From positions 1 to 54,035 of the forward strand of contig JADZEY010000046.1 in the NCBI GenBank assembly GCA_020850315.1: a stretch of DNA of 54,035 nt, written 5' to 3'. Source of the stretch: Armatimonadota bacterium. Its GTDB lineage: Bacteria; Bacteroidota; Ignavibacteria; OLB7. The notes beneath the pieces were generated by a model. The model was not told the DNA's origin. It did no database searches and saw only the letters and a program-made list of their open reading frames with translations. Shown here piece by piece: positions 7,826 through 51,607 of this stretch (positions within the stretch are counted from its first letter, which is position 1; each line of letters opens with the position of its first letter). The position numbers and the translations under genes are program-made.

Positions 7826-7931
7826 GCAGCCAGTACATTCCTCACCCAATCCCTCCTGACGAACAACAAACGCGCAAAGACTCCAAAACATCACATAAAC
7901 TCTCAGTTCAACCTTGAGACCAGGAGACGGT

Positions 7932-10900
7932 ATGCAAACAAGACTACTACGGCGATTGCGGCACATCGGGTGGATGCTGGCTGCGGCGGCAGTGCTTTTT
8001 GTTGCGGGAACGCAGGGGGCAAAAAGTTCGTTTCTAAGCAACTACTACTACCAGTTCGGCACGGGTGCCGGGACTGATATGACAGTGGACACTACCTTAA
8101 CTATGGATGGTAGCGGCAGCCTGAACATTGATGATGGATATTCCCAGATCAAGGACATCGGCTTCACGTTCAAGCTGGATGGCACAAGCTACACCCAATT
8201 CCGTGCTGGTGTGAATGGAATGATGGGGCTTGGTAACAGTGGGACCGTCAACATTAACTCCACCTTTAGCAACAACCTGTCCAGCACTACAAGCAATCCG
8301 GTAATAGCAGCGTGGTGGGACGACCAGCACATGACGCTGAATGCCAGCAGCGCTGCTACTTCTAAAATTTCTTACCGTGTTACGGGTACGGCTCCTAACA
8401 GAGTGTTAACTGTGCAGTGGAGAGTCGGGGCATATCCAAGCGGGACTTCGGTCGTCCCTTACGAGTATCAAGTGCGCTTGTATGAGGGTACGGATATGAT
8501 AGACTTCGTGTATATCAATATGCCAACAACCGCAAGCCGCAGCGCATCTATTGGTGCGACAACAAATGGGAGTATAAATAACATTTACTGGGTTCCGCCA
8601 ACAGCACAGGGTGCTGGGCTATCATTGTTTTCCGGGACAGATCCTAGGAACATTAATCTATTGACTGGTGCAAACCCGCAGCATCTGCTGCCTGCAAATA
8701 CTATCTATCGCTTTGTTCCCTGCGATCCTAACATTGCGATTGCCGGAAACATAGCGCAAGGTGGCACGGCCACAATGGCAAACAACGATAGCCTGCTAAA
8801 TGGGTATCAAGTACAGCGGGGCAGCGTGGGAACCCGCCAGCCATTCAGCATCACTTCCGGGCTTGGGGCGTATCCGGCTTGTGCAAACCGCACCTACACC
8901 TACACTATCTCTGGGGCTAACGCTGCGGATTACTCAATTACCCCAACAACGGGCATCATTTCCACTGGCCAAACTTTAACACCCACCATCAATTTCACCC
9001 CCAGCGCGTTGGGCATCCGTACGGCAACATTGATGGTAACGGACAACAACGGCTTCTCCCGCAGCTACACTCTGGTGGGTCAAGGCACAACCCGTGTTGG
9101 CTACACAGGCGATCTTGCTGAAGGTGGAACAGTGAACATGGCCAGCGGCGACACACTGATGAAAGGAATCAAAGTTGATCGCCTCTTCTTCGAGGATTTC
9201 ATGCCGTTCACCGTTGCCAACACCAACGGCAACACCAACTCGGGATTCATGACAACCGTGACGATCAGCGACCCAACCGGGCAGTATCGCCTTGTCCATC
9301 CCAACACTTCGCAGTTGGTGACCAGCTACTCAAGAACGCTGAACGGAACCCAAAGCTACACTCCGGTTATCCGATTCTCTCCATTGGGCGTTGGCTACCA
9401 ACCAGCAACGCTGACGGTGACCACCGAGGACGGAACCCGCACCTACACCCTCTACGCCTTCTCGCGCGCTGCCGGTGCTGACTTCTTTGTTGGGAACGAT
9501 AAGATCGGGCCAAACACGGAGTTCTTCAAGAAAGACTACTTGTGTGCTGGCGAGACCGCAATCACTATCCCGATCACCGTCAAGAACGTGGGGGAAGGGA
9601 CCTTCCGAATCTTCGGGGTCACGGGAGCCTATGAGATGGATACTCTGTACGGGCAAGGGGTGCCGAAGTATCCGCTGGAGCGTGATCAGTTCGGCGACCC
9701 AATCGCCACGATGGATTATTTCATCACAACCGACCCAGGCGTTGCGCCGCGTCCGTTGAACTTTTTCCCACAGTATCCGCTGGAGACCCCGGAAGCCGGG
9801 ACCAGCACCTTCTACCTGACGTTTGTTCCGCAGCTTCCGGGCAAGCGGTTCACACGGTTCTTCATCAACACCAACGCCGCAAACTTCACGGGCATGGACC
9901 CATACGGGGTTACGCGCGACGGTTTGTTGGTGCTGGAGCTGTTCGGACGTGGGCTTGGTTCCCGCCCGACCGACATCGTGGACGGCACAACGCTGCCGAA
10001 GCCGGTGACGATGCCCTCGGTGATGATCGGTTCGTCGTCGGAGAAGACCGTGACCATTTACAATACCGGAGCCTGCGACCTGCGGATTGATCGGAAGAAA
10101 TTCCAGATTACCAGCGGCGACAAGAATGAGTTCAAGATTCTGGAAGCGTTTGCCAACGCAACAGTAGATCAGACCAACGACACGTGGATACTGGCACCGG
10201 GAACTTCCTCGGAAGTGAAGTTCATGTTCAAGCCGTCGCGCACCGGAACACGCCGCGTCACCGTCTGGATGCAGACCAACGACTCGACGATTATTGTCCC
10301 GGGGCTGACCGAACGTGGGGGCTACTACTGGGATGTGACCGGGGTTGGATCGGCAGGATTGGAAACCCGCGACGCAATGTTCCCACCATCAGTGATTGGT
10401 GGCGCAGTTGCCGACCAGTCCATGGCCAGCGCGATGGTGGAAAACACTACGCATGAGTTGCTGTATATCAACAAAATGGAGATCACCGGAACGGATGCCA
10501 GCGAGTTCACCATGAACACTGCCAAGCCGTGGCCAGCGGTTCCGTTTGCGGTGATGCCGGGTGCGGCCATGCACTTCTCAGTTGTTCACACGCCAGCCCC
10601 AGCCAGCCAGCCAGGACCGCGGACGGCGGTGTTGGAGCTAACGCTAAACAGCGGCGATGTGATCCGCTTGAACCTAATCGGCGAGGCGGGAACGCGGACG
10701 CTGGCGGTTACGCCTGCATCTTTGTTCGACAACGTGACGATTCCGGTTGGGAAAATTGCCCGCCAAACGGTGATGATTACCAACAACGGCACAATCCCGC
10801 TGAAGCTGGGGACCACAACAATCAGCGGCCCAACCTCAACTGACTACACCTTAGGCCGCGTCCCACGGACAACGCTGGCACCGGGGCAAACTGAGTACTT

Positions 10901-11336
10901 GGAGGTGACCTACCGCCCATTGAACAAGGGAACCAGTAGCGCAACAATGACCATTGCCAGCAACGCAACCAACGGTGCGCAAACGGTCACCCTGGGAGGG
11001 ACGGCAACCAAACTTGGCCCCGTCACCGGAGAGAACGCAGGAACCAGCGGGGTGGAGGATGCGGAGTTCAGCTACGGCATGAAGCTGTGGCAGAACGTGC
11101 CGAACCCGGGCCGCGACCGTGTGGAGATTGCCTACGAATTGCGTGAAGCCGGGGAGGCAGTGCTGGCGTTGTACGATGCTAACGGGAAGCAGATCAACCT
11201 GCTTCGCAGCGGTATCAGCGAGGCTGGCACCCACCGTGTGGCGGTGGATGTTAGCGGGTTGGCAAGCGGCGTGTATCACTACCGCCTAATGGTCAACGGC
11301 CAAACGCTGACCCGTGCGATGACTATCCAGAAGTAA
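7932..11336 (+). CDS. Secreted choice-of-anchor-D protein with T9SS sorting domain
   Basis: A protein of 1134 residues. The ATG at 7932 has a clear Shine-Dalgarno (AGGAGA, 7922-7927) and opens a signal peptide (MQTRLLRRLRHIGWMLAAAAVLFVAGTQG). The N-terminal ~260 residues form a beta-rich domain shared in plan with the truncated gene at 53246. They are followed by repeats starting GNIAQGGTATMANNDSLL and GDLAEGGTVNMASGDTLM, and then by choice-of-anchor-D beta-sandwiches (ITNNGTIPLKLGTTTISG, VTYRPLNKGTSSATMTI). The last ~85 residues are a T9SS sorting domain (KLWQNVPNPGRDRVEIAY ... SGLASGVYHYRLMVNG). It is probably displayed on or released from the cell surface. No enzymatic motif was seen. The family assignment is good; the role is unknown. 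Confidence 0.88.
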   Translation: MQTRLLRRLRHIGWMLAAAAVLFVAGTQGAKSSFLSNYYYQFGTGAGTDMTVDTTLTMDGSGSLNIDDGYSQIKDIGFTFKLDGTSYTQFRAGVNGMMGLGNSGTVNINSTFSNNLSSTTSNPVIAAWWDDQHMTLNASSAATSKISYRVTGTAPNRVLTVQWRVGAYPSGTSVVPYEYQVRLYEGTDMIDFVYINMPTTASRSASIGATTNGSINNIYWVPPTAQGAGLSLFSGTDPRNINLLTGANPQHLLPANTIYRFVPCDPNIAIAGNIAQGGTATMANNDSLLNGYQVQRGSVGTRQPFSITSGLGAYPACANRTYTYTISGANAADYSITPTTGIISTGQTLTPTINFTPSALGIRTATLMVTDNNGFSRSYTLVGQGTTRVGYTGDLAEGGTVNMASGDTLMKGIKVDRLFFEDFMPFTVANTNGNTNSGFMTTVTISDPTGQYRLVHPNTSQLVTSYSRTLNGTQSYTPVIRFSPLGVGYQPATLTVTTEDGTRTYTLYAFSRAAGADFFVGNDKIGPNTEFFKKDYLCAGETAITIPITVKNVGEGTFRIFGVTGAYEMDTLYGQGVPKYPLERDQFGDPIATMDYFITTDPGVAPRPLNFFPQYPLETPEAGTSTFYLTFVPQLPGKRFTRFFINTNAANFTGMDPYGVTRDGLLVLELFGRGLGSRPTDIVDGTTLPKPVTMPSVMIGSSSEKTVTIYNTGACDLRIDRKKFQITSGDKNEFKILEAFANATVDQTNDTWILAPGTSSEVKFMFKPSRTGTRRVTVWMQTNDSTIIVPGLTERGGYYWDVTGVGSAGLETRDAMFPPSVIGGAVADQSMASAMVENTTHELLYINKMEITGTDASEFTMNTAKPWPAVPFAVMPGAAMHFSVVHTPAPASQPGPRTAVLELTLNSGDVIRLNLIGEAGTRTLAVTPASLFDNVTIPVGKIARQTVMITNNGTIPLKLGTTTISGPTSTDYTLGRVPRTTLAPGQTEYLEVTYRPLNKGTSSATMTIASNATNGAQTVTLGGTATKLGPVTGENAGTSGVEDAEFSYGMKLWQNVPNPGRDRVEIAYELREAGEAVLALYDANGKQINLLRSGISEAGTHRVAVDVSGLASGVYHYRLMVNGQTLTRAMTIQK

Positions 11337-27956: not shown

Positions 27957-27974
27957 TACTGAAGTTACGCAGTA
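27957..27974 (-). repeat. Short inverted repeat, left copy (TACTGCGTAAC type)
   Basis: The reverse complement TACTGCGTAACTTCAGTA matches 31092-31108 (TACTGCGTAACCTCAGT) at 16 of 17 positions. The two copies are inverted relative to each other and lie outside the fibre gene on both sides. Confidence 0.6.
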
Positions 27975-27984
27975 CCCTAAAATG

Positions 27985-28040
27985 ATAGGCAGCACAAGGC
28001 GTTTCATAAAGTATGCTCTCCGCATTACTCTGTCAACGCG
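27985..28040 (+). repeat. Flanking direct repeat, left copy
   Basis: TAGGCAGCACAAGGCGTTTC, then ATAAAGTATG and CTGTCA, recurs at 30776-30830 as TAGGCAGCATAAGGCGTTTC and ATAGAGTGTG. The first 28 bases match with three differences, and the match weakens further right. A shorter third relative occurs at 53159-53190. Confidence 0.65.
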
Positions 28041-28163
28041 CCTTGACTGCCTATCTCAGCTTCTACTTCTCTATGAAGTACACAGTCTGTGCCCAGATTG
28101 CACAGTTATTCTCCTTATCGGAACAGAGTATCTCACACGCTGTCCTTCAGCGGCTATAGTATC

Positions 28164-30470
28164 CTACGGTGTTACAGCTGCAACGCTTGTGACAGCACCG
28201 GATGGTCCAACAACCCGAAGTTCACGCGTAACTCCATTATCGAAAATATAGAGCTTGTAAACGCCAGCTGTTCCTGCTGGATTTGTGTTCCGGGATGCCA
28301 GCGAAATTGTTCCATTACCACGAATGTCAAGCTCTGAGACTGGAGTTCCAGTCTTAATTCCAACATCGGCATTGTTGCCCAAAGCTACAGCGTTGTTTTG
28401 GCCGACAACTGCACCTGCCCCAACAGCTGTTGCGTTGTCCAAACCAATTGCGGAGGCGTTAGCACTGGCTCCTAAAAATGTATTATTTGATCCACCTTGA
28501 ATAGCTGTCCCAGCAAACCGACCAAGTGCTGAATTACCGCTTCCTGTGTTAACACTGCTTAAGGCACTGTAGCCGAATGCAGAATTATTGCTTCCAGAAT
28601 TATTTGCAAGCAATGCGTCCCCTCCAACAGCAGTATTGCTGGAGCCAGTGTTGTTGGTGACTAGTGCTAATGAACCCACGGCAGTATTATTTGCTGCGGT
28701 ATTATTCCCTAGTGATTGCCACCCCATTGCTGTGTTGTCATTGCTTGTTAGGTTGGAACCAAGTGATAAATAACCTACCGAAGTATTGCGAACGCCGTCC
28801 GTGTTTTTCCATAAGGCTCTGAAACCAACAGCGGTGATTTGGCTAGCTTGATTATCGTTCAATGCATCCGCGCCCACTGCTGTGTTCTGGCTGCCGTTGG
28901 TCATATCCCGCAATGCAACTAAGCCCACAGCCGTATTCCCGAATCCATCAATATTCGCTGATAGTGCCCCACCACCAACAGCAGTATTGTTGAAGCCAAT
29001 AGTGTTTGCTATCATTGCATCAGCGCCAATTGCTGTGTTATGGGTTGCTGTAGTATTGGCATTTAGCGCATTCTTTCCTATTGCCGTATTGGATTGTCCA
29101 CTAGTGTTGTCGCTCATTGCATTGGTTCCTATTGCCGTATTCCAAATGCCATCAACATTATCTGCCAGAGTAAGGTAGCCTATTGCTGTATTGCCAAAAC
29201 CAATAGTGTTGCTGCGTAGTGCCGATCTACTAATCGCAACGTTACTGCTTCCACTAGTATTCGATGCCAAAGCGAATGACCCTATGGCTGTGTTATCTGA
29301 GCCAGTGGAGATATTCAACGCTTGGTAGCCAATAGCTGTGCTATTATCTGATGTAGTGTTTGCAGCAAGCGTAGCAAAACCAATGGCAGTATTCCGTAGG
29401 CCAGTTGTGTTTGCGGCTAATGCGTCGGCTCCCACGGCAGTATTTTCGCTTACGCTATTGTTCCGCAAAGCGTTGGTTCCAATAGCAAGATTACTTTGCC
29501 CAGTTCCGTTGCTGTTCAAAGCGTTGCTTCCAATAGCGGTGTTGTTGCCAGCAGTTGAGTTCTGCAACGCCTGAAACCCGATTGCTGTGTTATCTGCCGA
29601 TGTTGTGTTTATCGCAAGCACATTACTGCCAACTGCTGTGTTGCGTAATCCGGTCATATTTGCTGTTAAGGCATTGCTTCCAACAGCAGTATTATTGCTT
29701 ACGGTATTAGCCAACAGTGCATTGGTTCCTACGGCTGTGTTATTCCCGCCAACTACATTGTTTTGCAATGCTGCTGATCCTAAAGCAGTATTTCCTGCCC
29801 CTGCGTTGACTGAGCCGGAATTAACCCCGGCAAACACATTGGTTGTTCCCGTCCCGTTAATATGAAGCACCCGATTACCACCAATCTCGTAATGCTGACC
29901 ACTATTGATGTCAGTTGCTACATCCAGCCCTGCTGTTGGTGCTGCAGCAACACCTATCCCAACTTGCCCTGTAGTGAAAACACGCATCCGTTCGCTGTTA
30001 TTTGTACGAATCACAAGTGGTTGTCCATCTTTTGTCCCTAAAAAATTAGTAGCGGGATTTGTTCCCGAATTTCCCAGCAGTTCCCAGAACACCCCACTGG
30101 TATTGATCTTAATCATGTTGTAGATGGTGGTAGAATCCATAAATGGCACCCAATGAGGAGCCAGAGGGGTGGCCTCATTGTACTCAAATCGATTGGCATC
30201 TAAATTGAATATCAACAACGATTTAGCTGGACTCATAACACCGTTCCGCTGAGTCTGAGTTAATCGTGGCATCAAAAAACCACCATCGGTTGTTACTAAT
30301 TCCAAAATCGCTGACCGATCTGGCTGAAGAGTTCCAACCCCTAAGTGGCCGTAAATATCAACAGTGGGACTGGTCCTAACAATCTGAGCCACCATCGGAT
30401 AGGGCATCAGAAAGAAGATTGAAAATGCTGCACATAACATGCCTGTGCATAGTGCGTATAGATTACGCAT
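28164..30470 (-). CDS. Fibre-like protein with ~28 tandem NTAxG-type repeats
   Basis: A protein of 768 residues with a signal peptide (MRNLYALCTGMLCAAFSIFF...). The ribosome site TGGAG precedes the ATG. Residues 35-80 carry the tail-fibre-like module GHLGVGTLQPDRSAILELVT, then GGFLMPRLTQTQRNGV, common in Bacteroidetes fibre and adhesin proteins. Residues 227 to about 695 are some 28 copies of a 15-17-residue unit, NTA[VI]GxxAL with about eight variable residues, as in trimeric YadA/Hia head domains and phage fibre stalks, where each repeat makes one turn of a left-handed beta-roll. The protein ends in IFDNGVTRELRVVGPSG without a YadA membrane anchor or T9SS domain, so its anchoring is unexplained. 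One 60-base line of this gene counts 45% GC against 60% in a line of the ABC ATPase gene. Flanking repeats suggest mobility. Confidence 0.75.
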   Translation of the reverse strand: MRNLYALCTGMLCAAFSIFFLMPYPMVAQIVRTSPTVDIYGHLGVGTLQPDRSAILELVTTDGGFLMPRLTQTQRNGVMSPAKSLLIFNLDANRFEYNEATPLAPHWVPFMDSTTIYNMIKINTSGVFWELLGNSGTNPATNFLGTKDGQPLVIRTNNSERMRVFTTGQVGIGVAAAPTAGLDVATDINSGQHYEIGGNRVLHINGTGTTNVFAGVNSGSVNAGAGNTALGSAALQNNVVGGNNTAVGTNALLANTVSNNTAVGSNALTANMTGLRNTAVGSNVLAINTTSADNTAIGFQALQNSTAGNNTAIGSNALNSNGTGQSNLAIGTNALRNNSVSENTAVGADALAANTTGLRNTAIGFATLAANTTSDNSTAIGYQALNISTGSDNTAIGSFALASNTSGSSNVAISRSALRSNTIGFGNTAIGYLTLADNVDGIWNTAIGTNAMSDNTSGQSNTAIGKNALNANTTATHNTAIGADAMIANTIGFNNTAVGGGALSANIDGFGNTAVGLVALRDMTNGSQNTAVGADALNDNQASQITAVGFRALWKNTDGVRNTSVGYLSLGSNLTSNDNTAMGWQSLGNNTAANNTAVGSLALVTNNTGSSNTAVGGDALLANNSGSNNSAFGYSALSSVNTGSGNSALGRFAGTAIQGGSNNTFLGASANASAIGLDNATAVGAGAVVGQNNAVALGNNADVGIKTGTPVSELDIRGNGTISLASRNTNPAGTAGVYKLYIFDNGVTRELRVVGPSGAVTSVAAVTP

Positions 30471-30702
30471 TGGTCAACTCCAGGAAGAAGTGTGAGTTAT
30501 TAGGTACTGTAGAACCGTTGTTTGTGTTCTCTCAGTAGGCTTGAATAAGGTTCAGCGACGAAGGGGGAAGAGGTAAGGAACGAGAAAGGAGTAGAAGGCA
30601 GGATGAAAAATTCAAAATGGCAATAAAGCATCCGAAACAAGAAAGTAGTTTTTGTATAACAATTCACGAGCCAACAATACTACTATGGATTGCTTCTCAA
30701 CG

Positions 30703-30735
30703 CAAAGTTACTATAAAGTCTGACAGATATTCAAA
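30703..30735 (-). promoter_or_regulatory. Bacteroidetes-type promoter for the fibre gene
   Basis: On the minus strand TTTG (30735-30732), N21 and TAACTTTG (30710-30703) fit the -33/-7 pattern exactly. The leader to the ATG at 30470 would be about 225 bases. Confidence 0.6.
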
Positions 30736-30775
30736 CCTAAATTTCTTTCTGAGGTTATGTGGTGACTTGGGGTAT

Positions 30776-30830
30776 TAGGCAGCATAAGGCGTTTCATAGA
30801 GTGTGTTCGCTGCATTCTGTCAGTTGAAGA
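30776..30830 (+). repeat. Flanking direct repeat, right copy
   Basis: Partner of 27985-28040, in the same orientation, on the other side of the fibre gene. Confidence 0.65.
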
Positions 30831-31090
30831 TTGCGCGGCTGAAACGGTATCAGGTAACCATCTATCAACTCTACGATCTTCTTCTGAACAGACTTGCCCC
30901 CCGAATCTTGTTTGAAATCTACGGTTTCACGTACTCGCCTTGCGCAGAGTTTGAATAGTGAACACTTGCCCGTGCTATGGCTCCACTCATACTTCGATGT
31001 GATGCAGCATGAGCGGAGGGTGTATTCTGGCGAAATATTGAGTCACTGCAATCACCAAGCTCCATCATGGTGTTGCGTAAGGTCAGTTAC

Positions 31091-31108
31091 GTACTGCGTA
31101 ACCTCAGT
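31091..31108 (+). repeat. Short inverted repeat, right copy
   Basis: TACTGCGTAACCTCAGT (31092-31108) pairs with 27957-27974. A tandem relative TGCGTAAGGTCAGT lies 20 bases upstream (31074-31087), and the right end enters the last codons of the signal peptidase gene. Confidence 0.55.
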
Positions 31109-32117
31109 CAATCACATTAAAAAGGCGGCCCCAACGGATGGATCCCAGCTTCTCCCAAATGCTGGTTTGTTCGGCGGGGTTTTCGGTGTTGGCAATCCCA
31201 TCTCCATCGCGATCAACCGCCACCGGCCACGACCAATACACAATCAGTGGTGTTCCAATCACATCATCCATCGGGACAAAGCCCCAGTATCGGCTGTCTA
31301 ACGAGTTCCACCGGTTGTCCCCCATTCCAAAGCAGTAGTCCCGCTCCACCGTGTAGGAAGTAACCGACTTCCCGTCAACTTTTATGATCTCTCCATCGCG
31401 CTCAACTTCGTGTCCTTCCCGCATCACAAAAATGCGCCAAGCCCGGTAGGTGGAGTCGTTCAGCGGAATGATGTCTCCTTTTTGGGGGATGCGGAGCGGC
31501 CCCCAGTTGTCGCGGGTGAAGCCGTAGCCTTCCGGGAAGGTTTGGCTTGCATCGCCCGAGCTTGGTGTGCTGAGCATCGGATCGAATTTGGCTAATTCCG
31601 GCAACGGCTGCTCAACTCCATTGATATAAATTTTTGTGTTGATGATCTGCAAGGTGTCGCCGGCGGTGGCCACGCAGCGTTTTAGGTAGTACTGAAAGTC
31701 GCGGGCCTTGACATCGCTGCGCCCCCCGGGAAAAATGAAGACAATCACATCCCCTTTCTGCGGGTCGCGCAAGCCAGGAAGAGTGAAATAGGGGAGTGGA
31801 ATGTTGAAGAAGGGAATAGTCTGCGGCGACGAACCGCCGTAGATGAAGCGATTGACGAACAGGAAATCCCCCGGCAACACCTCGTTCTCCATCGAACCAG
31901 TAGGAACCACAAAGGAGGCGATAAGGATGCCGTTAATCACCATCACAATCAGCAGCGAGCTGAAGATGGTTTTCACCCAGGACCAAAGCTCTTGCCCTAA
32001 TGTTAGTTTTTGCTGGGGAGGCTTCCCTGCTCCATTCTGTTCATTGTGATTGGTAGCGGTGGGGCGTGAGGTTGTTTTCTTCCCGCTCAAAATCTGCTTC
32101 CGTTCCTCTGGGTTCAT
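31104..32117 (-). CDS. lepB: Signal peptidase I (catalytically intact)
   Basis: A protein of 337 residues that cleaves signal peptides of Sec-exported proteins at the inner membrane. One membrane anchor spans about residues 48-70. The nucleophile S75 lies in VVPTGSMENEVLPGD and the general-base lysine K146 in YYLKRCVATAGD. Box E (GMGDNRWNSLDSRYWG) is intact. The long insert between boxes (about residues 90-140) is normal for Bacteroidetes enzymes. It starts 36 bases after the degenerate paralogue's stop codon (32154), forming an operon lepA - pseudo-lepB - lepB on the minus strand, and serves the many exported proteins in this window. Confidence 0.93.
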   Translation of the reverse strand: MNPEERKQILSGKKTTSRPTATNHNEQNGAGKPPQQKLTLGQELWSWVKTIFSSLLIVMVINGILIASFVVPTGSMENEVLPGDFLFVNRFIYGGSSPQTIPFFNIPLPYFTLPGLRDPQKGDVIVFIFPGGRSDVKARDFQYYLKRCVATAGDTLQIINTKIYINGVEQPLPELAKFDPMLSTPSSGDASQTFPEGYGFTRDNWGPLRIPQKGDIIPLNDSTYRAWRIFVMREGHEVERDGEIIKVDGKSVTSYTVERDYCFGMGDNRWNSLDSRYWGFVPMDDVIGTPLIVYWSWPVAVDRDGDGIANTENPAEQTSIWEKLGSIRWGRLFNVID

Positions 32118-32153: not shown

Positions 32154-33032
32154 TTACTCAATGGATCTGAACATCCGCCCCCAGCGGATTGCAGCAATCC
32201 GTTCCCACAGCGATAACGCTTCTTCGGGGGCGTACGGGTTCGGAATGCCGTCCTTGTTCCGGTCGGCGGCGGTTGGCCATGACCAATAGACAAACACTGG
32301 TCGGCCAACAATGGCATCGTAAGGGATGAATCCCCAGTAGCGGCTGTCCATGGAGTTCCAACGGTTATCCCCCAAACCAAAGCAGTAGTCGCGCTCAATT
32401 TGGTAGGAAGTTGCTGGCCGTCCGTCAATGCTGATTGTGGCCCCCATCCGTTCGACTTGATGCCCTTCGCGGCGGATAAATATCCGCCACGTATCCATTG
32501 TTTCCGGGCCTAACTGAATCAGATCGCCTTTTTGGGGAACCCGCATTGGCCCCCAGTTGTTGCGGGTGAAACCGCTTCTGTTGGGGAAACTTCTGGTAGC
32601 ATCGTCGCTGGGTAGCGCGGCAAATGTGGAATCGAATGTGACGGTTGCCGGGGGCTGCTGTGGCTTGCCGTTCACCCACACAACGTTGTCTCTGATCTGA
32701 ACCGTGTCGCCAGCAATGGCCACGCAGCGTTCCATGTAGTGCTGTGGAAGATCGGGCATTACTTGGTCGCGCAATCCAGGGAACTTGAAGATGATAACCC
32801 TTCCGCGCTCCGGCATTGCTTGCTCTGCGGATGCAACAAGGTAATCCCCCAGAAAGATGGCACTCTCCATTGCACTGGTTGGAACTAAATAGGTCTTTAC
32901 CCCAGGAACAACCAACCCAACAAGGCCAAAAATTAGCAATGGACTGAAGGGGAGCAGAACCAACAGCGCGCCCCCCAATACAAGGTAGCGAGTCCGAAAT
33001 CGGCGACGCGGAAGTAATGGTTCAGAAGGCAT
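32154..33032 (-). CDS. Signal peptidase I paralogue lacking both catalytic residues
   Basis: A protein of 292 residues, clearly homologous to the adjacent signal peptidase (shared GFTRxNWGP, PQKGD, ERDYCFG and GDNRWNSxDSRYWG). The serine box reads YLVPTSAMESAIFLGD: the nucleophile position is A54, with S53 shifted by one. The lysine box reads QHYMERCVAIAGD: K is replaced by E101. I checked both codons in the DNA (GCA and GAA). The fold, membrane anchor (about residues 15-40), binding boxes and reading frame are intact, so it is not a decaying pseudogene. A precedent is S. aureus SpsA, an inactive paralogue beside active SpsB. Its role is unknown: it may bind substrates or modulate its partner. 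Confidence 0.85.
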   Translation of the reverse strand: MPSEPLLPRRRFRTRYLVLGGALLVLLPFSPLLIFGLVGLVVPGVKTYLVPTSAMESAIFLGDYLVASAEQAMPERGRVIIFKFPGLRDQVMPDLPQHYMERCVAIAGDTVQIRDNVVWVNGKPQQPPATVTFDSTFAALPSDDATRSFPNRSGFTRNNWGPMRVPQKGDLIQLGPETMDTWRIFIRREGHQVERMGATISIDGRPATSYQIERDYCFGLGDNRWNSMDSRYWGFIPYDAIVGRPVFVYWSWPTAADRNKDGIPNPYAPEEALSLWERIAAIRWGRMFRSIE

Positions 33033-36263: not shown

Positions 36264-39200
36264 CTACCGTAGCAACATCAGCCGGAGGATGCTCCGTTGG
36301 GTTGGTGTGGTCAGCACTGCGTAGTAGATACCGCTTGGCTGGTTGCTTGCATCCCATGTGGCAATATGCGGTTGGGTGGGTAGTTGTTGTTGGTCTACCA
36401 GTGCGGCAACGCGCCGCCCGTACAGGTCAAAAACCTCTAGCGATGTATGGCCATCTTCCACCGTCTCGAAGTGAATATCGGTGGAGGGGTTGAACGGGTT
36501 TGGCGCGGCCATTTTGATGCCGAACGCGCCGCTCACTTTCACGATTCGATCCCCGCCAACGGCGCAGTAGCCATCCAGCACAAACACTCCGTTGTTTGCG
36601 CTGGCGGTGGCTTTCCCGTCGCTGAAAAACAGCGTGTCGAAGGTGACAGGGGTGGTAAGTGCATTCCCCAACGTCACCACAACATCCAAGAAGCCAAGCG
36701 TGTCGGGTGGGGTTGCTGGCATTGGGTTGTTGGCAATGGTGAACGTCACCACGCGGTCGCTTCCGCTAATGCTGCTGTTGGTGATGCGCCCGATTGACGT
36801 TGCTTCCCCCGTTACCGCTTTCCCCGATGCCCCCGTTTCCCCTTTGCTTCGGGCGCGAACGGGATAGAGCATGGATCCGTTGAACCGCACCGTTGCTTGC
36901 AGCGTGGTAGCCCCCGATCCTGTCAAGTCCGATCCGTTCCCCAGCACAAGCGGGATTGATATCCGGTCGCCCGGCGCGCCGCGCAAGCTATCGGGGATAG
37001 TGATGTTGGCAATCCCCTGCGGAATCCGCTCCCCAATACCTTGCAGCATCGCAATGCTGGTATCGGCACAGGGGAGGTTTTGGATGACCCACAACGGCTG
37101 CTGGAATGTTCCGGTATCGGTTGGCGTAAACCGCACTGCCACGCTGATCGTTTCCCCTGGCTTCAACGTTTGCGGCGAAGCAAAGCCAACCACTTGGAAC
37201 GGCGGCGGAGCTTCCACTCCGGTGATGGTGATATCACTGCTGGAGCGGTTCTGCAGCGTCACGTTCCCATCCACAAACGCCCCAACCGAGACATCGGCTG
37301 TTCCGAAATCGTAGGGGTCCGGCAGGGCCACAATCGCCGCACCAACCTCACCCTGAATCGTCACCTGAATCACCGGTTGCTTGGCATCGTTGGTGTAGAT
37401 GGTGATCGTCCCTTGCTTGGCCCCCGGCGTTGCCGCAAGGCCACGGACAAAGCGATATTGAACCTCCACTTTCTGCCCCGGCTTCACTGTCTGGTTCCAG
37501 GTCTGCGTCAGCTGCTCGAAGACGTTTTCGGTGTTGTTGGTAAGCGTCACTCCGTTCAGGGCAAAATCCCCGGTGCCAACGTTCTCAATCGTTAGCGTCA
37601 GCGTGTCGGTGTCGCAGGGGATATTGCTTCCAAAATCGAGCGGGTTTGGCGTAACGCGCACTGCCGACTGGATACCTTCCCCCGTCAGCGAAGCGCAGAC
37701 CGTATCGAGGCAGGGGGAGGTGATGATAAAGCAATACTCGGCTGCATACTGCTGCTCCGATAACGGCGTGAAAATGATGCTGTCGGAGATGCTGTTGCCC
37801 GGGCTGAGTACCGTTGGAGCATTGGCTTTTGCAACCACAAAACCCGATCCCGATGCAGGGCGAATCAGGGTTTGGCTAACGGTGATTGGAACGCCGCTGT
37901 TGTTGGTTAGTCGGGCGTAGCCACCGCTGGAGAATCCAATGTTGGTTTGGCCGAACGTGATGCCGGTCGCGCTGTAATCCAACGCCACCAACTGGCCACG
38001 AACCGCCACGCGGGTTTCCCGTTTGCAGCGGTCATCGGTTAGGATTAGCGTGTCGGTATGAACCCCGGGAACGGCTGTGTTGAAGGCGATGGACACTGGG
38101 CGTTCGGCCCCCTGCGCAACCGTGATTGGGGGAACGGTTCCCAACGTGAAATATCGCCCATCGGCAAAGCGTGCGCGGATTGTTTCGTTAAAATCGCCGG
38201 TGTTGGCAACGCGAATTGTGTCGAATTTCGGCACGGTGCATTTGAAGCTTTCCCCAAAATCAAGCTCGGTTGGTGCCGCGCCCCCTTGCTTGTTGCGGAT
38301 CACAATCCGCGACGACAGCCGTTGCAGCGTCACGCCAATCCGCAACGTCTGCTGCGAGGGGTCGGTGGCGTCGGTGCGGATAATCACAGCGTCAGTTCCC
38401 GAGGTTCCCGGCTGCCACGTAACAGTGAACGTGATGGAATCCCCCGGCAACAGATCGGTTCCGCCGGGCGCGGCCAGCGGCGTAACCATCACCACACCAA
38501 ACTGGGTGGTGACGTTCAAAATTTTCACCGGAATTGTTCCCGGGTTGGAGAGCTTGAAGGTGTCAGTAACCGGAATCGGCGGGTCTAAACAGGTGTCGGC
38601 TGCCAGCAAAAACTGATCGCGCGAAAGAAGCAGTTTTGCGTTGATAACTTCGCCAATCACCGGCACGCAGATGGTGTCGGGGCACTCGGTCCCGAACACA
38701 ATGCAGAGGTTGCCAACATATGGATAGCCCGCCGTTGTTGTTGGGCGGAAGGTGACGTTCCCGCCGTTGGTTTGCAGCGGGTCAAGGTTGGTTCCGGCCA
38801 GCGAGGTCGGGATGCTGAAATCGTTGTTTGGCGGATCCAGATAGACGCTGGTGATGGTTCCCCGTGAGGTTCCCCTGCCGCGAATCGTGATGCTTTGCGG
38901 GGGTGAAGTGGTGTTCAGCACTTCCCGGAACCGAAGCGTATCCGGCTGCGGCTGGAACTCCAAACGGGTGTCCACCCCTTCGCCCCGCAACTTCACAATC
39001 AGCGGGATGGTGCATTGGCCAACGCTGATCCGGACTGAATCGTTAAAAATGCCGGACCCATCTGGTTGGAAACGAATCCGCACCCATTTCTTGTCGGTTG
39101 GGGCGTTTAGGTCAAGCGTCGTTGCGTCCGGTGCGGTGACGCTGAAGCGTTGCGGCGCGCCCAGCACTGCGGGGATACCAACAAGCTGATCGTTCACATC

Positions 39201-41390
39201 GCCAATGAACGTCACCTGCACGCTGTCTTCTTTCCACTTCCCAAAGCATACTCTGCCGAAATCAACCTGGGTTGTGTTCAGCGATGCCTCAATCCGGCGG
39301 CGGGAGCCCGTAAGGGGGATGTCGGTGGGGCTTTTCCCGCTGCGGGGATCGTTGTTGACAAGGCGCAAGGTGGCGGTTTTGTTCCCATACACCGCCGGGG
39401 CAAACCGAACTTGAACCTCCACACTGCTGCCCGGCGCAACGGTGAAGCCAGCGTTGTAGGGGGGAAGAATGGTGAAATCAGTCTGGTTTGGGCCAACGAT
39501 GGAGGGGGTAATCGTCAGCGGCGCGTCCCCTTCGTTGGTGACGAGCAGGGTATCCAGAAGAATCTCATTGCAAACCACAAGGCCGATAGTAAGCTGCTGC
39601 TGGTCGGTTTTAATTTTTGGGATTAGTTGGATGTTCACAATGTCGGCTGCCGACTGCGAAAAAATCCATTGGGGATTTTGGGTGAATGGATCGGCAGTGA
39701 CGGTGTAGGGGCCTTGGACTGCGCAGACGTAGAAATTTCCCGTTGCCGAACCAGTCTGAAGCATTGCCAGTGTTGGGGTGATTGTCCACAACCGCCCGTT
39801 GTATGATGGCGGCAGAAGCTGCACCCACTGCGCGTTCGGGTTGTCGTTCCGGATATACACCCGGATTTGATCTGTCCCATTCCGCGTTCCGGTGATTGCC
39901 CGTTCCCCCAGCCACATTGAGCTTAGCGTGTCGGTCGTAAGGCCAACGTAGGTGCTGGCGGAGTTGGCCACGGTAAGGTTGCTGGTCACAAAGCCATCGT
40001 AGCGGGCGCGGCCCTGGCCGCCGGCACCGCCACCGCTGGTCCCGTTCCCCCCCTTGGTGTCGCCCGATCCGCCAAACGCCCCTTGGATTTTGGAGCCAAG
40101 CCCAATGTATCCGCCGGATCCGCCCCCTGCACCGGGTGTGCCTGCCGTGGCGTTCGCGCCGCGAGCAAAGATGGCCCCGGAGTTGGTGATGATGCCGTTG
40201 GCAAACAACGCAACTGCGCCGCCAGCTCCGCCCCCTTCACCAGCGCAGCCACTTACTGACTGTGGGTTGCCCCCACCACCACCGGAACCACCCGCAACCG
40301 GAGTAACATAAATATTCCCGTAGGCTTTCCCGCCGCTGGTTGTTTCCCCACCGGCCCCGCCGCTGCTGCCGTATCCACCGCCACCGCCAGCTTTTGTTTG
40401 GCCACCAGATGAACCACCGCCATACTGTCCGTTCACCAACCCTTCACAGGCGCCATCCCCCCCTTTCCCGAACGGGTGGCCAGTGCCGCCACCGGTTCCT
40501 TCTGGGCCGCCACAGGCGCTGGTATTTCCGCCGCCACCTTTGGCCCCGTTCAACCCGTTGCCGCTGGTTCCCGACGATTCGCCGGGTGGATTGTAGGCAT
40601 CGCTTCCGATAGCATTATTTTGCCCGCCGCCGCCGCCGCCAGTGTAGCCTTTGCCGCCGTTGGTTCCGCTGGTGCCGCTTAGTCCATCGCACACTTTTCC
40701 GCCGCCGCCGCCGCCGCCAGCAGCCCCGTCAAGCCCGCTGCCATCCAGTTTCAGGGTGGCATCGAAGTTTATGGCAATGTTTTTTTTGCTGATAAGGGTA
40801 AGTGGAAGGAATCCTTGATTACCGGGGGTTCCGGGGTCGGTATCGGTGGTGCTAACGGTGAAGGTTCCGTTCTGAAGGGTCAGGCTTTGGACGATCATTG
40901 CGCCCCGCTTGGAGCGGGTTCCGGAAGTGCCACCCGATCCAATGGTGATGACGTTTGTGGGGGATCCAGCATCCAGCACGCCATTCCCTATCAGCCCAAG
41001 ATTTTGTGGGGTGACAATCTCAAAATCCACAGTGCTGCTTCCCGCGCCGGTGGTCACTTTCAGCTGCACCGTTCCGTTGGCAACGCCAGGCTTCACGAAC
41101 ACTTGTGTGGCAATCATCCGCCCCGACCAACTGACCACTATCGGGCCAACAACAATTTTGGCGGCATCGGCAGCGGTGTTTGGCTCCACCCGAACGGGAT
41201 CGCCGGGGTTGTTGGGATAGAGGCCATCGGCCCCGAAATTGCCGCTTCCGGTTGTGGGACCGATAATTTCCACGTAGGTGTTCATCCCCTGCGTGCCGAT
41301 GTCGGGAATGATGTAGCTGATTTGTGGTTGGGCAACTGCCGCGCCGCACAGCGCAACAAGCATCAACAGAAAGAAGGTTGCCGTTTTCAT
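36264..41390 (-). CDS. Giant surface protein: Gly-rich, choice-of-anchor-D, cohesin-like, T9SS
   Basis: A protein of 1708 residues from the ATG at 41390 (MKTATFFLLMLVALCGAAVAQ); ATG 41420 adds ten residues and is possible. After a beta domain reminiscent of IPT/TIG (about 20-130), residues about 217-462 are Gly/Ser/Thr-rich with GGGGGGG and GGAGG runs. Repeated ~100-residue choice-of-anchor-D units then follow (NxGTxPV..., FxPxxxGxxxxTLxI). Near the C-terminus a domain starting GAPGDRISIPLVLGNG resembles a cohesin fold (inference), then a T9SS domain (APNPFNPSTDIHFETV ... PSGIYYAVLTT). It is a likely surface-layer or adhesive scaffold protein. Its tandem paralogue lies beyond the OmpA gene. 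Confidence 0.85.
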   Translation of the reverse strand: MKTATFFLLMLVALCGAAVAQPQISYIIPDIGTQGMNTYVEIIGPTTGSGNFGADGLYPNNPGDPVRVEPNTAADAAKIVVGPIVVSWSGRMIATQVFVKPGVANGTVQLKVTTGAGSSTVDFEIVTPQNLGLIGNGVLDAGSPTNVITIGSGGTSGTRSKRGAMIVQSLTLQNGTFTVSTTDTDPGTPGNQGFLPLTLISKKNIAINFDATLKLDGSGLDGAAGGGGGGGKVCDGLSGTSGTNGGKGYTGGGGGGQNNAIGSDAYNPPGESSGTSGNGLNGAKGGGGNTSACGGPEGTGGGTGHPFGKGGDGACEGLVNGQYGGGSSGGQTKAGGGGGYGSSGGAGGETTSGGKAYGNIYVTPVAGGSGGGGGNPQSVSGCAGEGGGAGGAVALFANGIITNSGAIFARGANATAGTPGAGGGSGGYIGLGSKIQGAFGGSGDTKGGNGTSGGGAGGQGRARYDGFVTSNLTVANSASTYVGLTTDTLSSMWLGERAITGTRNGTDQIRVYIRNDNPNAQWVQLLPPSYNGRLWTITPTLAMLQTGSATGNFYVCAVQGPYTVTADPFTQNPQWIFSQSAADIVNIQLIPKIKTDQQQLTIGLVVCNEILLDTLLVTNEGDAPLTITPSIVGPNQTDFTILPPYNAGFTVAPGSSVEVQVRFAPAVYGNKTATLRLVNNDPRSGKSPTDIPLTGSRRRIEASLNTTQVDFGRVCFGKWKEDSVQVTFIGDVNDQLVGIPAVLGAPQRFSVTAPDATTLDLNAPTDKKWVRIRFQPDGSGIFNDSVRISVGQCTIPLIVKLRGEGVDTRLEFQPQPDTLRFREVLNTTSPPQSITIRGRGTSRGTITSVYLDPPNNDFSIPTSLAGTNLDPLQTNGGNVTFRPTTTAGYPYVGNLCIVFGTECPDTICVPVIGEVINAKLLLSRDQFLLAADTCLDPPIPVTDTFKLSNPGTIPVKILNVTTQFGVVMVTPLAAPGGTDLLPGDSITFTVTWQPGTSGTDAVIIRTDATDPSQQTLRIGVTLQRLSSRIVIRNKQGGAAPTELDFGESFKCTVPKFDTIRVANTGDFNETIRARFADGRYFTLGTVPPITVAQGAERPVSIAFNTAVPGVHTDTLILTDDRCKRETRVAVRGQLVALDYSATGITFGQTNIGFSSGGYARLTNNSGVPITVSQTLIRPASGSGFVVAKANAPTVLSPGNSISDSIIFTPLSEQQYAAEYCFIITSPCLDTVCASLTGEGIQSAVRVTPNPLDFGSNIPCDTDTLTLTIENVGTGDFALNGVTLTNNTENVFEQLTQTWNQTVKPGQKVEVQYRFVRGLAATPGAKQGTITIYTNDAKQPVIQVTIQGEVGAAIVALPDPYDFGTADVSVGAFVDGNVTLQNRSSSDITITGVEAPPPFQVVGFASPQTLKPGETISVAVRFTPTDTGTFQQPLWVIQNLPCADTSIAMLQGIGERIPQGIANITIPDSLRGAPGDRISIPLVLGNGSDLTGSGATTLQATVRFNGSMLYPVRARSKGETGASGKAVTGEATSIGRITNSSISGSDRVVTFTIANNPMPATPPDTLGFLDVVVTLGNALTTPVTFDTLFFSDGKATASANNGVFVLDGYCAVGGDRIVKVSGAFGIKMAAPNPFNPSTDIHFETVEDGHTSLEVFDLYGRRVAALVDQQQLPTQPHIATWDASNQPSGIYYAVLTTPTQRSILRLMLLR

Positions 41391-41531
41391 AAGCGTAGCC
41401 AGTCGGTCAAATGTGTTCATCTATCAGAAGGTTCCGTGAAGTCACCCCGAAGGGGGGAAACCTAACGGGGGGGGGGAAATCACCAGCTATCGGGTTGGCA
41501 CGGAGTAAGCGACATGGGGCGATTGCAAACC

Positions 41532-43838: not shown

Positions 43839-46800
43839 TCACTTCGCCAGCACCAATCGGCGCAGGCTGCGTTGGGTTGGTGTGGTTAGCTCGGCGTAGT
43901 ACAGGCCGCTTGGGAACGGTGTCGCGTCCCACGAGCGGACGTGGGCTTGCACTGGCAAGTTTTCACGATCAACAAGGGTTGCCACCCGTTGCCCTGCGGC
44001 GTTGTAGATAGCAAGCGTTGTTGGGCCCCGCTCCACCGTCTCGAACACAATTTCGGTTGAAGGATTGAACGGGTTCGGGCTGATAGAGATGATCCCAAAC
44101 GCCCCCGAGACTTTCAGCAAGCGACTGCCCCCCGCATCGCAGTAGCCTTTCAGGGTGAACAGCCCGTCGGATTGGGTGTTCTTCATCAAGACATCGGCCC
44201 ATCCCAGCGAGTCAATTCTGATTGGGGTAGTGGTGCTGTTCCCCAGCAGCACGGCTGCTTCAATCATCCCCAGCGTGTCGGGCGCGGTGGGGATCGGGTT
44301 GTTGGTAAGCTCCACCGTCAACAGCATCTCATCCCCCTGCACCTTCCGGTTCAGAACTCTTGCGATTGAGGTCGCTTCTTTCTTGCCAAATCTTCCGGTT
44401 CCATCGGCAAAGCGCAATGGTTCCAGCATGGAGTGGTTGTAGCGCAACCGTAGCCGCACGGTTGTTGCGCCAACTTCCTCCAGCAGATTGGAGCTTTGCA
44501 GGATAATTGGGATCAGAATGGTATCCCCCGGCGCGCCAGTTAGCGTGGTGGGAATAATGATTTCTGAGAAGCCAGCCACTGGCGGACGGCCTTCGCCGGT
44601 TAGTGCGGTTAGCGTTGTGTCAACGCACACACCGCCAAAAATCACCCGTAGCGTGTCGTTGTAGATCAGCGTGTCGGCGGGGGTGAACTCCACCGTCAGC
44701 ATCACCGTGTCGCCGGGGCCCAATTTGGATGGGACTGGCGGCAGGATGGTGTACGGCGGGCGGATGTCGAAACGGTCAATCCGAACGGTGTCGGGTGAGT
44801 TGTTCACCAGCGTCACGGTGCGGGTTGGCGATGGCGGAACCCCCGCCAGCGTCCGTCCAAAATCCACAAAAGCGGGCGCGCTAACTGAGTAGCTGCGGCG
44901 GCGGCCAGTCAGCAGAACGTTGAGGGTATCCTGGCGGGAATCGTCCGAGATGATTTTTAGCGTTGCTGTGACGATGCCATCAGCCGGGGCCCGCGAGGCA
45001 ATAAACCGGTACGTCACCATCAACGAATCTTTTGGCTGAAGCTGGTGCGGCTTTGTCACCGTGCTCACTTGCTCGAACGCCACAGCCCCAGGATCGGTCA
45101 GCACCAGATCCAGCACTTGCAGCGGAAGATTCCCCAAATTCAGGATTGCCAGTTGCAGCGTGGTATCGCTTTGGCAGGTGAAACGGGTCCCGAAGTTCAG
45201 CACACTTTGGCGGGCGAAAATATCTGATTGCACCCCCGAGCCATCCAACGGGACGCAGATGGTATCCAAGCACGGGTTTTCGGTGACGAAGCAGAGTTCG
45301 GCAGCCGAGGTTGTTGGCCCGGTTGGCTGATACATCACGTCGAACGTGAAATCCTCATTCGGTGCTATCTCTATCGGGAATTGCGCTTTTGACGGGATCA
45401 CAAACTCCGGCGTTGGCGGGCGCACGAACGCATCCACCACCCGCATTTTGGTATCCAGCGGGGTTTTACTGGTGTTGATGAACGTGGAGGAACCGTAGCG
45501 GGTTTGCCCCACCACCGAAGGGCCGAAATCAATGCCAGTTACCTGCTGCGAAACTTGATACCGCCGCCCGGCCACCGCCACACGAATCACTTGGTCGCTG
45601 CAACTTCCGTTCTGCAACATCAGGGTGTCGCGGTACTCACCCGGGGTTGGCGGGTCGAACAGCACAGCAATGGCGGTGTCGGCATTGCCAAGCAGCGGAT
45701 AGGGGGGGGGCGGGGAAAGTTTGAACGCTGTCCCCTGGGCAAACCCGCCAGTGACCACTGCCTGCAACGTGCCGGCGTTTTTCAGCCGGAAGGTATCGGT
45801 TCGCGGGCCACAGCCGTAGGCGGTGCCGAAGTCAATGCCGGAAGGGACTGGGGTGCTATCGGGAAGAAGCAACTTGATGACGGTGCTTTCCAACTTCAGG
45901 GTGATATCAATCACCATCTCCCGTTTTGTGGAGTCGGGGTCATCGGTTGGCAGGATGATTTTGGCAGTGGTTGCCCCGGCCTTGGTTGGCTCAATCTGGA
46001 TCACCACCCGCAGCGAATCACCAGGCTGGATCAGGTTGGTGTTCAGTGGTTCCTTAATGGTGATGCGGCTATTGTTACTGCTGGCCGACCCGATGTTTGC
46101 CGGATAGGTCCCGTAGTTATGCAGATACACCGTGTCGAAAATTTTCTCGACAGGCTCGGAGCAGGAATCAGCCGAGTAGGAGAGTTGAGCGCGGTCGAAC
46201 AGCAGAAGCGGAGCCACCCCTTCCCCCTGAACTTTCACACAGACGGTATCCAAACAGCTTCCGCCGCCGAAGACCACACACATAAACGCGCTATCAATTT
46301 TCAGCAGCTTGGTTGGGCGGTAACTGAAGTTGAACGATTCAACAAACGATGGACCCAGCACACGGCCAATAATTCCCATGGGGAGAATGAACTCCGAGGC
46401 GTACTGTGGGGGACGAACGAACAGATCAATAATCCTTCCGCTGGAGCGGCCCCACTGCTGCAAGGTGACGGATGTTTGTGCCGGTGGCCTTCCCACGGGA
46501 ACTTTACCAAAGTTGACGCTGCTTGCGGAATTTAGGCGTGCGTCAATGTCAATTGCGGTCCCCCGAACATTCACCCGAAGGATCAGGTTGCACTGGCCCA
46601 CGGGGATCTGAAGAACGTTGCTGAACGCCCCGGGCTGGATGGGGCTGAAGGCAATGATTACCTGCTGGGTGTCCCGTTGCGATTTCAGCGAGCGGGATTC
46701 GGAGGTGCTGTCGGGGCGGATAATCTGGAATGTTTTGACATCGGCACCATTGCTTAGGGTGATCTGCCCGATGCTTCCATCAATGCCGCCATCGTACAGC

Positions 46801-47267
46801 ACATGGATGGTATCGTAGGCGATGGCGTTGGTACAAATTTCCCCGAAGTCAATGTCGGCGGTGTCCAGCGAAGCAGTATAAATTTTCAGTTCCCCCGAAA
46901 GTACCACTGTCCGCTGTGGGTTGCTGGGATCGTTGCTGTTGACCGCCAAGGTTGCCGAGCGTGGCCCAAGCCCGCTGGGTTTCAGGCGGATCACCACATA
47001 GGCGCTATCGCCACGGCGCACCGTAAACGAGCCCGCAGGGCGAAGGATGGTGAAATCCGATCCGCTTGGTGATAGCGAGGTGCTGCTGATGGTAAGGTCA
47101 GCATCGCCAGTGTTCTTGATTTTAACGGAATCAATCAAAACGGAATCGCACAGCACCAAACCGAGTGCTTGCGAAGGGGGAACTTCAATCCGTGGGCCAG
47201 CAGTTAGTAGCGTGGTTGCACTAACCAAGATGGCCAGAAGTAGGAAGATTCGGTAGAAAAGTCTCAT
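43839..47267 (-). CDS. Large choice-of-anchor-D/cohesin-like T9SS protein, paralogue of the 36264 gene
   Basis: A protein of 1142 residues from the ATG at 47267 (MRLFYRIFLLLAILVSATTL, a signal peptide); the 38 codons upstream are not signal-like. It is built of repeated choice-of-anchor-D units (NTGDADLTISSTSLSPSGSD ... VVIRLKPSGLGPRSATLAVN), a cohesin-like segment starting GAPGDTILIPIILQSS, and a T9SS domain SPNPFNPSTEIVFETV ending PSGLYYAELTTPTQRSLRR. The final ~250 residues align with the paralogue at 36264 over GAFGI..NPFNPST..FETV and LTTPTQRS. It lacks the glycine-rich block. The sorting and repeat classes are firm; the ligand is unknown. Confidence 0.85.
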   Translation of the reverse strand: MRLFYRIFLLLAILVSATTLLTAGPRIEVPPSQALGLVLCDSVLIDSVKIKNTGDADLTISSTSLSPSGSDFTILRPAGSFTVRRGDSAYVVIRLKPSGLGPRSATLAVNSNDPSNPQRTVVLSGELKIYTASLDTADIDFGEICTNAIAYDTIHVLYDGGIDGSIGQITLSNGADVKTFQIIRPDSTSESRSLKSQRDTQQVIIAFSPIQPGAFSNVLQIPVGQCNLILRVNVRGTAIDIDARLNSASSVNFGKVPVGRPPAQTSVTLQQWGRSSGRIIDLFVRPPQYASEFILPMGIIGRVLGPSFVESFNFSYRPTKLLKIDSAFMCVVFGGGSCLDTVCVKVQGEGVAPLLLFDRAQLSYSADSCSEPVEKIFDTVYLHNYGTYPANIGSASSNNSRITIKEPLNTNLIQPGDSLRVVIQIEPTKAGATTAKIILPTDDPDSTKREMVIDITLKLESTVIKLLLPDSTPVPSGIDFGTAYGCGPRTDTFRLKNAGTLQAVVTGGFAQGTAFKLSPPPPYPLLGNADTAIAVLFDPPTPGEYRDTLMLQNGSCSDQVIRVAVAGRRYQVSQQVTGIDFGPSVVGQTRYGSSTFINTSKTPLDTKMRVVDAFVRPPTPEFVIPSKAQFPIEIAPNEDFTFDVMYQPTGPTTSAAELCFVTENPCLDTICVPLDGSGVQSDIFARQSVLNFGTRFTCQSDTTLQLAILNLGNLPLQVLDLVLTDPGAVAFEQVSTVTKPHQLQPKDSLMVTYRFIASRAPADGIVTATLKIISDDSRQDTLNVLLTGRRRSYSVSAPAFVDFGRTLAGVPPSPTRTVTLVNNSPDTVRIDRFDIRPPYTILPPVPSKLGPGDTVMLTVEFTPADTLIYNDTLRVIFGGVCVDTTLTALTGEGRPPVAGFSEIIIPTTLTGAPGDTILIPIILQSSNLLEEVGATTVRLRLRYNHSMLEPLRFADGTGRFGKKEATSIARVLNRKVQGDEMLLTVELTNNPIPTAPDTLGMIEAAVLLGNSTTTPIRIDSLGWADVLMKNTQSDGLFTLKGYCDAGGSRLLKVSGAFGIISISPNPFNPSTEIVFETVERGPTTLAIYNAAGQRVATLVDRENLPVQAHVRSWDATPFPSGLYYAELTTPTQRSLRRLVLAK

Positions 47268-47734
47268 GGAGCTCAGTTCGGTTCGGCAGAAAGGCTTCAA
47301 CGTATGTTTGTGCATCGCAGCCGATGCAACGCAAAGCAATACCACGGAGGCTACGGCTGCATGGTGTGAGTGCGCGACCATGACACCATAACCGTAGGAG
47401 AGTTATCCTCCCGTGATACCATCACACTGCCGTAACAATCGGCGGGCAAAATAGCTAAAGTTTCTCAAGAAGGTGATTGGCCAATGGTAAGGAATAACAA
47501 GCGGTGAATGGCCAAGCAATGGCTGGTAGCAGGGTGGCTGGGGGAAACCTATTCCCCACAACAAAAAAGCAACTGCACCGAAGCTGCCATACCGCCAGAT
47601 GGTATCACCCAGATGGTATCACCATGCAGTGGCATGGCCCGGCAACAAACTTCGGTGCAGTTGAATAGTATTCGGTCGTGTTCAGCAAAGGATTGCAGAT
47701 CTGTGCCTTCCACCCTTTGCCACTTCGGTCTGCG
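47268..47734. other. 467-base gap with a large inverted repeat
   Basis: Between the two minus-strand genes. It contains the 94-base inverted repeat described separately (47570-47663). No gene is supported. Confidence 0.6.
47570..47663. repeat. 94-base inverted repeat with internal tandem repeat
   Basis: The arms CAACTGCACCGAAG (47570-47583) and CTTCGGTGCAGTTG (47650-47663) pair perfectly over 14 bp. Between them lie two tandem copies of CAGATGGTATCACC (47596-47609, 47610-47623) and an ATGC-AGTG-GCAT hairpin. It may serve as a terminator for the gene ending at 47735 (minus), but the loop is long. Confidence 0.6.
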
Positions 47735-50855: not shown

Positions 50856-51569
50856 ATGCTGCCGAAGCTCTTCACATTCTATCCACGCTTGGGTATCCGC
50901 TTCCTGACAAGTTGCGCCATTGCTGTGCTGCTGATAGCCTTGCCATCGGTTGCCCAAGAAGAAGATTCTGCGGCCATTCTTCTTCGCGCTGGGAACGCGC
51001 TGCGCGATAGCTTCGACTACAACGCGGCCATCAGCCACTACCAGCGTGCGTTGGATCACAACCCAAACAACCTTGCGGCTGTCCGCCAGATCGCCTTTGC
51101 CTATCTGGAAGTTGGGAACGTGGATCGCTCGCTGGATATGGCGTTGCAAGGGGCGCGGCTGCAATCGGAGTGGCTACCGGAGTTCAACGCGCTGGCTGCG
51201 CTGGATTACAACTACGCAATCATCATCAGCGAGTATCACGAAAACATAGTTCACCGCCCCGATTCAGATGTTGTTGCTTTCCGGGCCTATCAACACGATT
51301 TGCCAGAGGGGGCCGCTAAAATTTTTGGACTGGGGCTAACATACTGGGCCATGGGGCGCACCCAAGCTGCCGAAGAATGCTTGCAAGAAGCGATGGAGTT
51401 GGATACTGCCTCCGAAGCGCCATTTATTCTTGGGCTGATGCGGCTACAACAGGGGCGATACCGCGAGGCCAAAGCGATGCTGGAAAAGTTTCTTCATCCA
51501 GACTCGTTCCTTGCAGCACGGGTCCGGCTGCTGATCGAAAATATCCAACGGAAGGAAGGGGAGCCGTAG
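50856..51569 (+). CDS. Exported TPR protein
   Basis: A protein of 237 residues from the ATG at 50856. Signal peptide MLPKLFTFYPRLGIRFLTSC followed by AIAVLLIALPSVAQEED. TPR units: DYNAAISHYQRALDHNPNNL, then AFAYLEVGNVDRSLDMALQG, LTYWAMGRTQAAEECLQEAM and LMRLQQGRYREAKAMLEKFL. It is periplasmic or outer-membrane associated and probably a protein-binding scaffold. The WD40 gene starts 38 bases later, so the two are probably cotranscribed. Confidence 0.78.
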   Translation: MLPKLFTFYPRLGIRFLTSCAIAVLLIALPSVAQEEDSAAILLRAGNALRDSFDYNAAISHYQRALDHNPNNLAAVRQIAFAYLEVGNVDRSLDMALQGARLQSEWLPEFNALAALDYNYAIIISEYHENIVHRPDSDVVAFRAYQHDLPEGAAKIFGLGLTYWAMGRTQAAEECLQEAMELDTASEAPFILGLMRLQQGRYREAKAMLEKFLHPDSFLAARVRLLIENIQRKEGEP

Positions 51570-51607
51570 CCGGGGATTTCAGCATATTCTTAACTAATCA
51601 ACCAACA

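Follow-up and report, generated by a model that had tools for sequence, protein, structure and literature searches.

A putative exported NTAxG-repeat fibre protein encoded on a probably transposed 3.15-kb segment

Within the stretch of DNA analysed here (54,035 nucleotides, referred to as the window) one gene encodes a protein which is dominated by short NTAxG repeats and for which the original prediction saw no recognisable anchor. This raises the question of what kind of protein it is, whether the missing anchor sets it apart, and how its gene came to lie at this place.

Architecture and conservation of the fibre protein

The gene is an open frame on the reverse strand which encodes 768 residues (28164-30470; coordinates and strand are exact). 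Its product starts with a putative signal peptide of about residues 1 to 29 (30384-30470, reverse strand) which was read from the sequence by eye, without a predictor, on account of its basic n-region, its hydrophobic core and an AQ site, cleavage being likely near MVA/Q; a lipobox is not present in it. There follows an N-terminal module of about 155 residues (aa 30-185; 29916-30383, reverse strand) which occurs near the signal peptide in no fewer than 12 further proteins that this genome encodes and whose bodies differ. The likeness of this part to fibre modules, noted originally, is supported, and the protein, possessing both the signal peptide and the homologous module, belongs to this exported family. 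One paralog comprises 2,536 residues with 60 NTAxG motifs. No T9SS or barrel domain was found in the scanned paralogs, and among these only a single one carries a C-terminal S74 intramolecular chaperone domain. Several paralogs (L059:3278-5722, L054, L055 and L056) bear another repeat, xSTVGGGxxNTASG.

The repeat array itself, predicted to fold as a beta-solenoid, consists of 25 regular NTAxGxxAL units of 16 to 17 residues (aa 227-645; 28536-29792, reverse strand). They are succeeded by three to four irregular or 14-residue units, extending to about aa 703, so that the anticipated number of about 28 units is borne out. Irregular units and cap (aa 646-703; 28362-28535, reverse strand) are kept in relatives and reach 17-19 bits with PF05658; the last two units are 14 residues long each and resemble those of YadA heads. 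Exact N[TS][AS][VIFML]G motifs number 23. At the protein level the periodicity is unmistakable, while Tandem Repeats Finder reports no array at the gene, the units having diverged at the DNA level. The C-terminal tail (aa 704-768; 28164-28361, reverse strand) was characterised by domain searches and by searches of the genome and of phages; its last 45 residues or so match nothing convincingly in the rest of the genome or in phages, and the phage comparison did not bear out a known phage fibre tip at the C-terminus.

A Pfam and NCBIfam scan of the full protein yielded no domain at cut-off; hence, as originally stated, it has neither a YadA anchor nor a T9SS tail. In particular, neither the S74 domain (Pfam) nor a C-terminal sorting domain of type A or B was matched, the latter being present in other proteins of the window. 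An Rfam scan of the gene's flanks gave no match.

In an orthologue from a sister species of the same genus, whose gene is also present in MAG JAEUSP010000065.1, the protein again comprises exactly 768 residues, is 87% identical and retains the periodicity. No unit has been gained or lost, and the variation in copy number for which a comparison had been proposed is thus not observed between the two species. The gene is under purifying selection, with an overall dN/dS of 0.11, 0.10 in the repeats and 0.06 in the N-terminal module, the lowest value of all parts; the signal peptide evolves fastest. With a GC content of 46.8% (GC3 39%) the gene lies, as had been noticed, below its neighbours (51-60%, GC3 58-72%) and below the window as a whole (55.6%). 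Since the orthologue has 47% and the measured paralogs 50-63%, the low GC content must be old and peculiar to this gene.

Relatives of the repeat and the predicted fold

NTAxG arrays are not confined to trimeric adhesins. They are common in phage tail fibres as well as among the exported proteins of Bacteroidota, Chlorobiota, Ignavibacteria and Verrucomicrobiota; within the phylum, 7 of 296 sampled genomes, the window's own included, match the array at E 1e-40. Among the closest counterparts are exported S74 proteins annotated as "tail fiber domain-containing" from Bacteroidota, Ignavibacteria and Verrucomicrobiota. They share with the window protein a signal peptide, the same NTAxG units, the cap NATAxGxxAxVxxSNxVxLGN and, in many cases, the N-terminal module. 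In contrast to the window protein they possess the S74 domain together with a coiled coil, and some of them a T9SS tail. S74 was present in all 11 distant relatives scanned, a few of which additionally end in a T9SS tail (partly read by eye); two relatives within the phylum, likewise inspected by eye, lack both. Absence of an anchor is hence a trait shared with relatives, and the absent S74 domain is the more notable lack. The view that an unanchored form is exceptional is not supported in light of the at least 12 further proteins with the same N-terminal module. Judged from its sequence, the protein is an ordinary, conserved member of a large paralogous family of exported, predicted beta-solenoids, a type widespread among phage and surface fibres.

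AlphaFold2 models of the single chain were calculated for the full protein (20 sequences) and, from 13 sequences, for the 245 residues of the repeat domain. In the full-length model, pLDDT is about 80-95 in the array from aa 240 on, while much of the N-terminal module (pLDDT 35-60 for a large part) and much of the tail are unreliable. The repeat domain (pLDDT 82, pTM 0.81) is modelled as a parallel beta-solenoid whose coils each contain three to four short strands. As each modelled chain forms a complete solenoid, the predicted fold itself would not require a trimer. Structurally it comes closest to beta-helical phage tailspikes, headed by that of Sf6 (Z 15.9, 3.1 Å, 234 residues). That right-handed helices fit better hints at such a handedness for the coil, although a shallow alignment can mislead in this respect. 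A Foldseek search against the PDB gave no match below E 0.001; YadA is not among the matches listed, which proves nothing. Neither the window protein nor the repeat profile gave a meaningful hit when solved structures were searched by sequence, and the strongest matches of a mixed profile of relatives (A2) stem from the S74 region, which the window protein does not have.

Could the protein be the head of a YadA-type trimeric autotransporter which has lost stalk and barrel? Kinship with trimeric adhesin heads was part of the original prediction, and it survives in an attenuated form. YadA-type heads (YadA, UspA1, CbpF; PF05658) share with the fibre an AIG-type motif of the inner strand, BadA and YadA heads containing SVAIG motifs (PMC2483945), and have layers resembling its two terminal 14-residue units. 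A mixed profile of relatives matches the CbpF head (E 0.02) in an alignment that includes the cap, and the UspA1 head is among the structural matches (Z 14.7), but with an rmsd of 7.9 Å over 217 residues. Yet the YadA_head family PF05658 scores only 17.3 bits (terminal units 17-19) against a cut-off of 25, and the regular units measure 16 to 17 residues whereas the layers of the LPBR comprise 14 and in UspA1 mostly 15 (PMC9543794). Neck, stalk and barrel are not detected, and the relatives end in S74 or T9SS tails instead. We therefore regard a degenerate autotransporter as unlikely, while a distant relation of the fibre unit to the YadA-head unit, short of membership in that family, is likely from the sequence comparison. 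The clear sequence relatives are the tail fibres of phages and Bacteroidota. When the repeat was searched against phage families, it matched virion and tail-spike families in PHROGs at an E value of about 1e-67 (PHROG 6002, 23837 and 4636), and phage tail fibres are 34-44% identical to the array, the same unit being found in fibres or spikes of Pelagibacter, Roseobacter, Prochlorococcus and Bacillus phages. These, however, are annotated as virion parts, and the matches cover the repeats only, not the N-terminal module or the signal peptide. That the protein is a tail fibre left in the chromosome by a prophage or a phage-derived injection particle is very unlikely in view of its signal peptide, of the many paralogs with signal peptides and of a neighbourhood (lepB, a second lepB, lepA, an ECF sigma factor and ArfB) devoid of any phage gene.

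Beta-helical depolymerases, lyases and epimerases are, like other tailspikes, among the top structural matches, so that a catalytic beta-helix, i.e. a polysaccharide lyase or depolymerase and not a structural protein, has to be considered as well. These matches, however, share the solenoid at an identity of 6-13%, no enzyme family is matched, and the coils are short and nearly identical, with few charged residues (11 Lys and Arg, 17 Asp and Glu in aa 227-700); an enzymatic role thus appears highly improbable. An ice-binding or similar surface-binding beta-roll has the antifreeze beta-helix 3p4g among the structural matches in its favour, and one of the xSTVGGGxxNTASG paralogs matches a grass antifreeze beta-roll family weakly (26 bits, cut-off 30). 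The window protein itself shows no such match, however, and a shared solenoid shows no function, which makes this assignment barely credible.

The segment carrying the gene

The fibre gene is contained in a segment of 3,151 bp (27958-31108) which is absent from the sister genome at this locus. There, lepB adjoins the sigma-factor gene, and homology with the window ends at 31108 and restarts at 27955 with a 4-bp overlap. The empty site ends exactly at two 18-bp inverted repeats, namely ACTGAAGTTACGCAGTAC (27958-27975, forward strand), 17 of whose 18 positions are complementary to the other end, and ACTGAGGTTACGCAGTAC (31091-31108, reverse strand), which overlaps the lepB stop codon. Their common pattern ACTGARGTTACGCAGTAC has only these two exact copies in the genome, no further exact match of the 18-bp end being found there. 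Within the segment there is no other long open reading frame that could be a transposase. The flanking pentamers GATTG/AGTTG agree at 3 of 5 positions as a putative target duplication. The inner part of the low-coordinate end is a 68-nt repeat (27959-28026, forward strand) with a 72% identical copy on the other side of the gene (30749-30816, forward strand), which was not found elsewhere in the genome. Given the terminal inverted repeats at its borders and the empty site, transposition of the segment as a non-autonomous unit is probable. Since lepB has other neighbours in more distant relatives, insertion and precise loss are not distinguishable. At this border lie two signal peptidase I genes in tandem (lepB, 31104-32117, and 32154-33032), an arrangement also seen in the sister species.

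Nested in the segment is a 155-bp MITE-like element, ACTGACCTTACGCA ... TGCGCAAGGCGAGT (30933-31087), whose ends ACTSACCTTACGCA / TGCGTAAGGTSAGT are related to the 18-bp inverted repeats. Dozens of copies exist in the genome, at about 40 further places (L013-L031), and searches of the sister genome returned it once. Its target duplications are 5 bp long, with 4 of 5 positions matching in the nested copy and 5 of 5 in several others. Copies often follow a stop codon immediately or lie at the end of a contig. This dispersed upstream repeat might have served a regulon as a common promoter, but it turned out to be the 155-bp element adjoining unrelated genes, and the notion was abandoned. There are precedents for MITEs that mobilise DNA in composite elements, for instance TIME-COMP of the Tn3 family (PMC4133298). 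Like those composites, the segment has inverted-repeat ends without a transposase and is akin to a miniature element which exists in many copies and has 5-bp duplications; unlike TIME-COMP, its own duplication is imperfect, its ends carry no family name, and its mobility is putative.

Upstream of the gene, 265 nt before the ATG and within the segment, lies a Bacteroidota-type promoter-like site, TTTG-N21-TAACTTTG (30703-30735, reverse strand); when the 634-bp region was shuffled, the pattern TTTG-N21-TAnnTTTG arose in 0.4% of cases. A chromosomal promoter of its own, as had been proposed, thus has a candidate. In the sister genome the orthologue is placed between a putative lipoprotein gene and a putative TonB-type receptor gene (sequences read by eye). 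As no neighbour is common to the two species, any partner, such as the original prediction considered, is not encoded adjoining the fibre gene. The corresponding place in the window genome (L074:2203-4688, G000 C90 versus L075:8251-10557, G001 C38) is occupied by two other open reading frames of 42% GC, one of them with an export signal; it seems to be an intergenic site that takes up surface-protein genes.

A probable surface fibre on a probably mobile segment

The empty site with its inverted-repeat borders and MITE-related ends suggests that the gene, which probably encodes an ordinary modular surface fibre, resides on a transposed segment. Taken together, a structural cell-surface fibre exported by the Sec route, built as a beta-solenoid rod and encoded on a 3.15-kb segment that has probably been transposed, is the reading to which we assign a probability of roughly two in three. 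The signal peptide would direct transfer across the inner membrane. The N-terminal module, common to otherwise different exported proteins, probably docks or oligomerises the fibres, a role that is a guess given how poorly this module is modelled. The array is predicted to form a long single-chain rod of about 28 coils, corresponding arithmetically to roughly 13 nm at 4.8 Å per coil, which may extend the chain outward in adhesion or in building a matrix; as the S74 domain of most relatives is absent, the fibre has to manage folding or trimerisation without that domain. The gene would bring along its promoter-like site on a segment which, with its inverted repeats, probably moves as a non-autonomous transposable unit.

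With this fibre, a large class of exported tail-fibre-like proteins that has received little study gains a further member. Together, the exact insertion bounded by MITE-like ends and the orthologue at a different locus in the sister species represent a concrete case of surface-protein gene relocation without an obvious vector. Whether this extends to the lineage is more doubtful: we tentatively propose that its surface-fibre genes might travel on transposase-less, MITE-related inverted-repeat elements with their own promoter which land directly behind stop codons, so that the set of surface fibres would be reshuffled among loci with no phage or plasmid involved.

Elsewhere in the window, three large choice-of-anchor / ASH-Ig proteins (7914-11336, 36264-41420 and 43839-47381) have T9SS tail matches, some of them below the Pfam cut-off, and the T9SS route is thus probably in use in this organism. 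A further open reading frame (51377-52978) encodes a 533-residue protein which, in a bacterium, consists largely of WD40 repeats.
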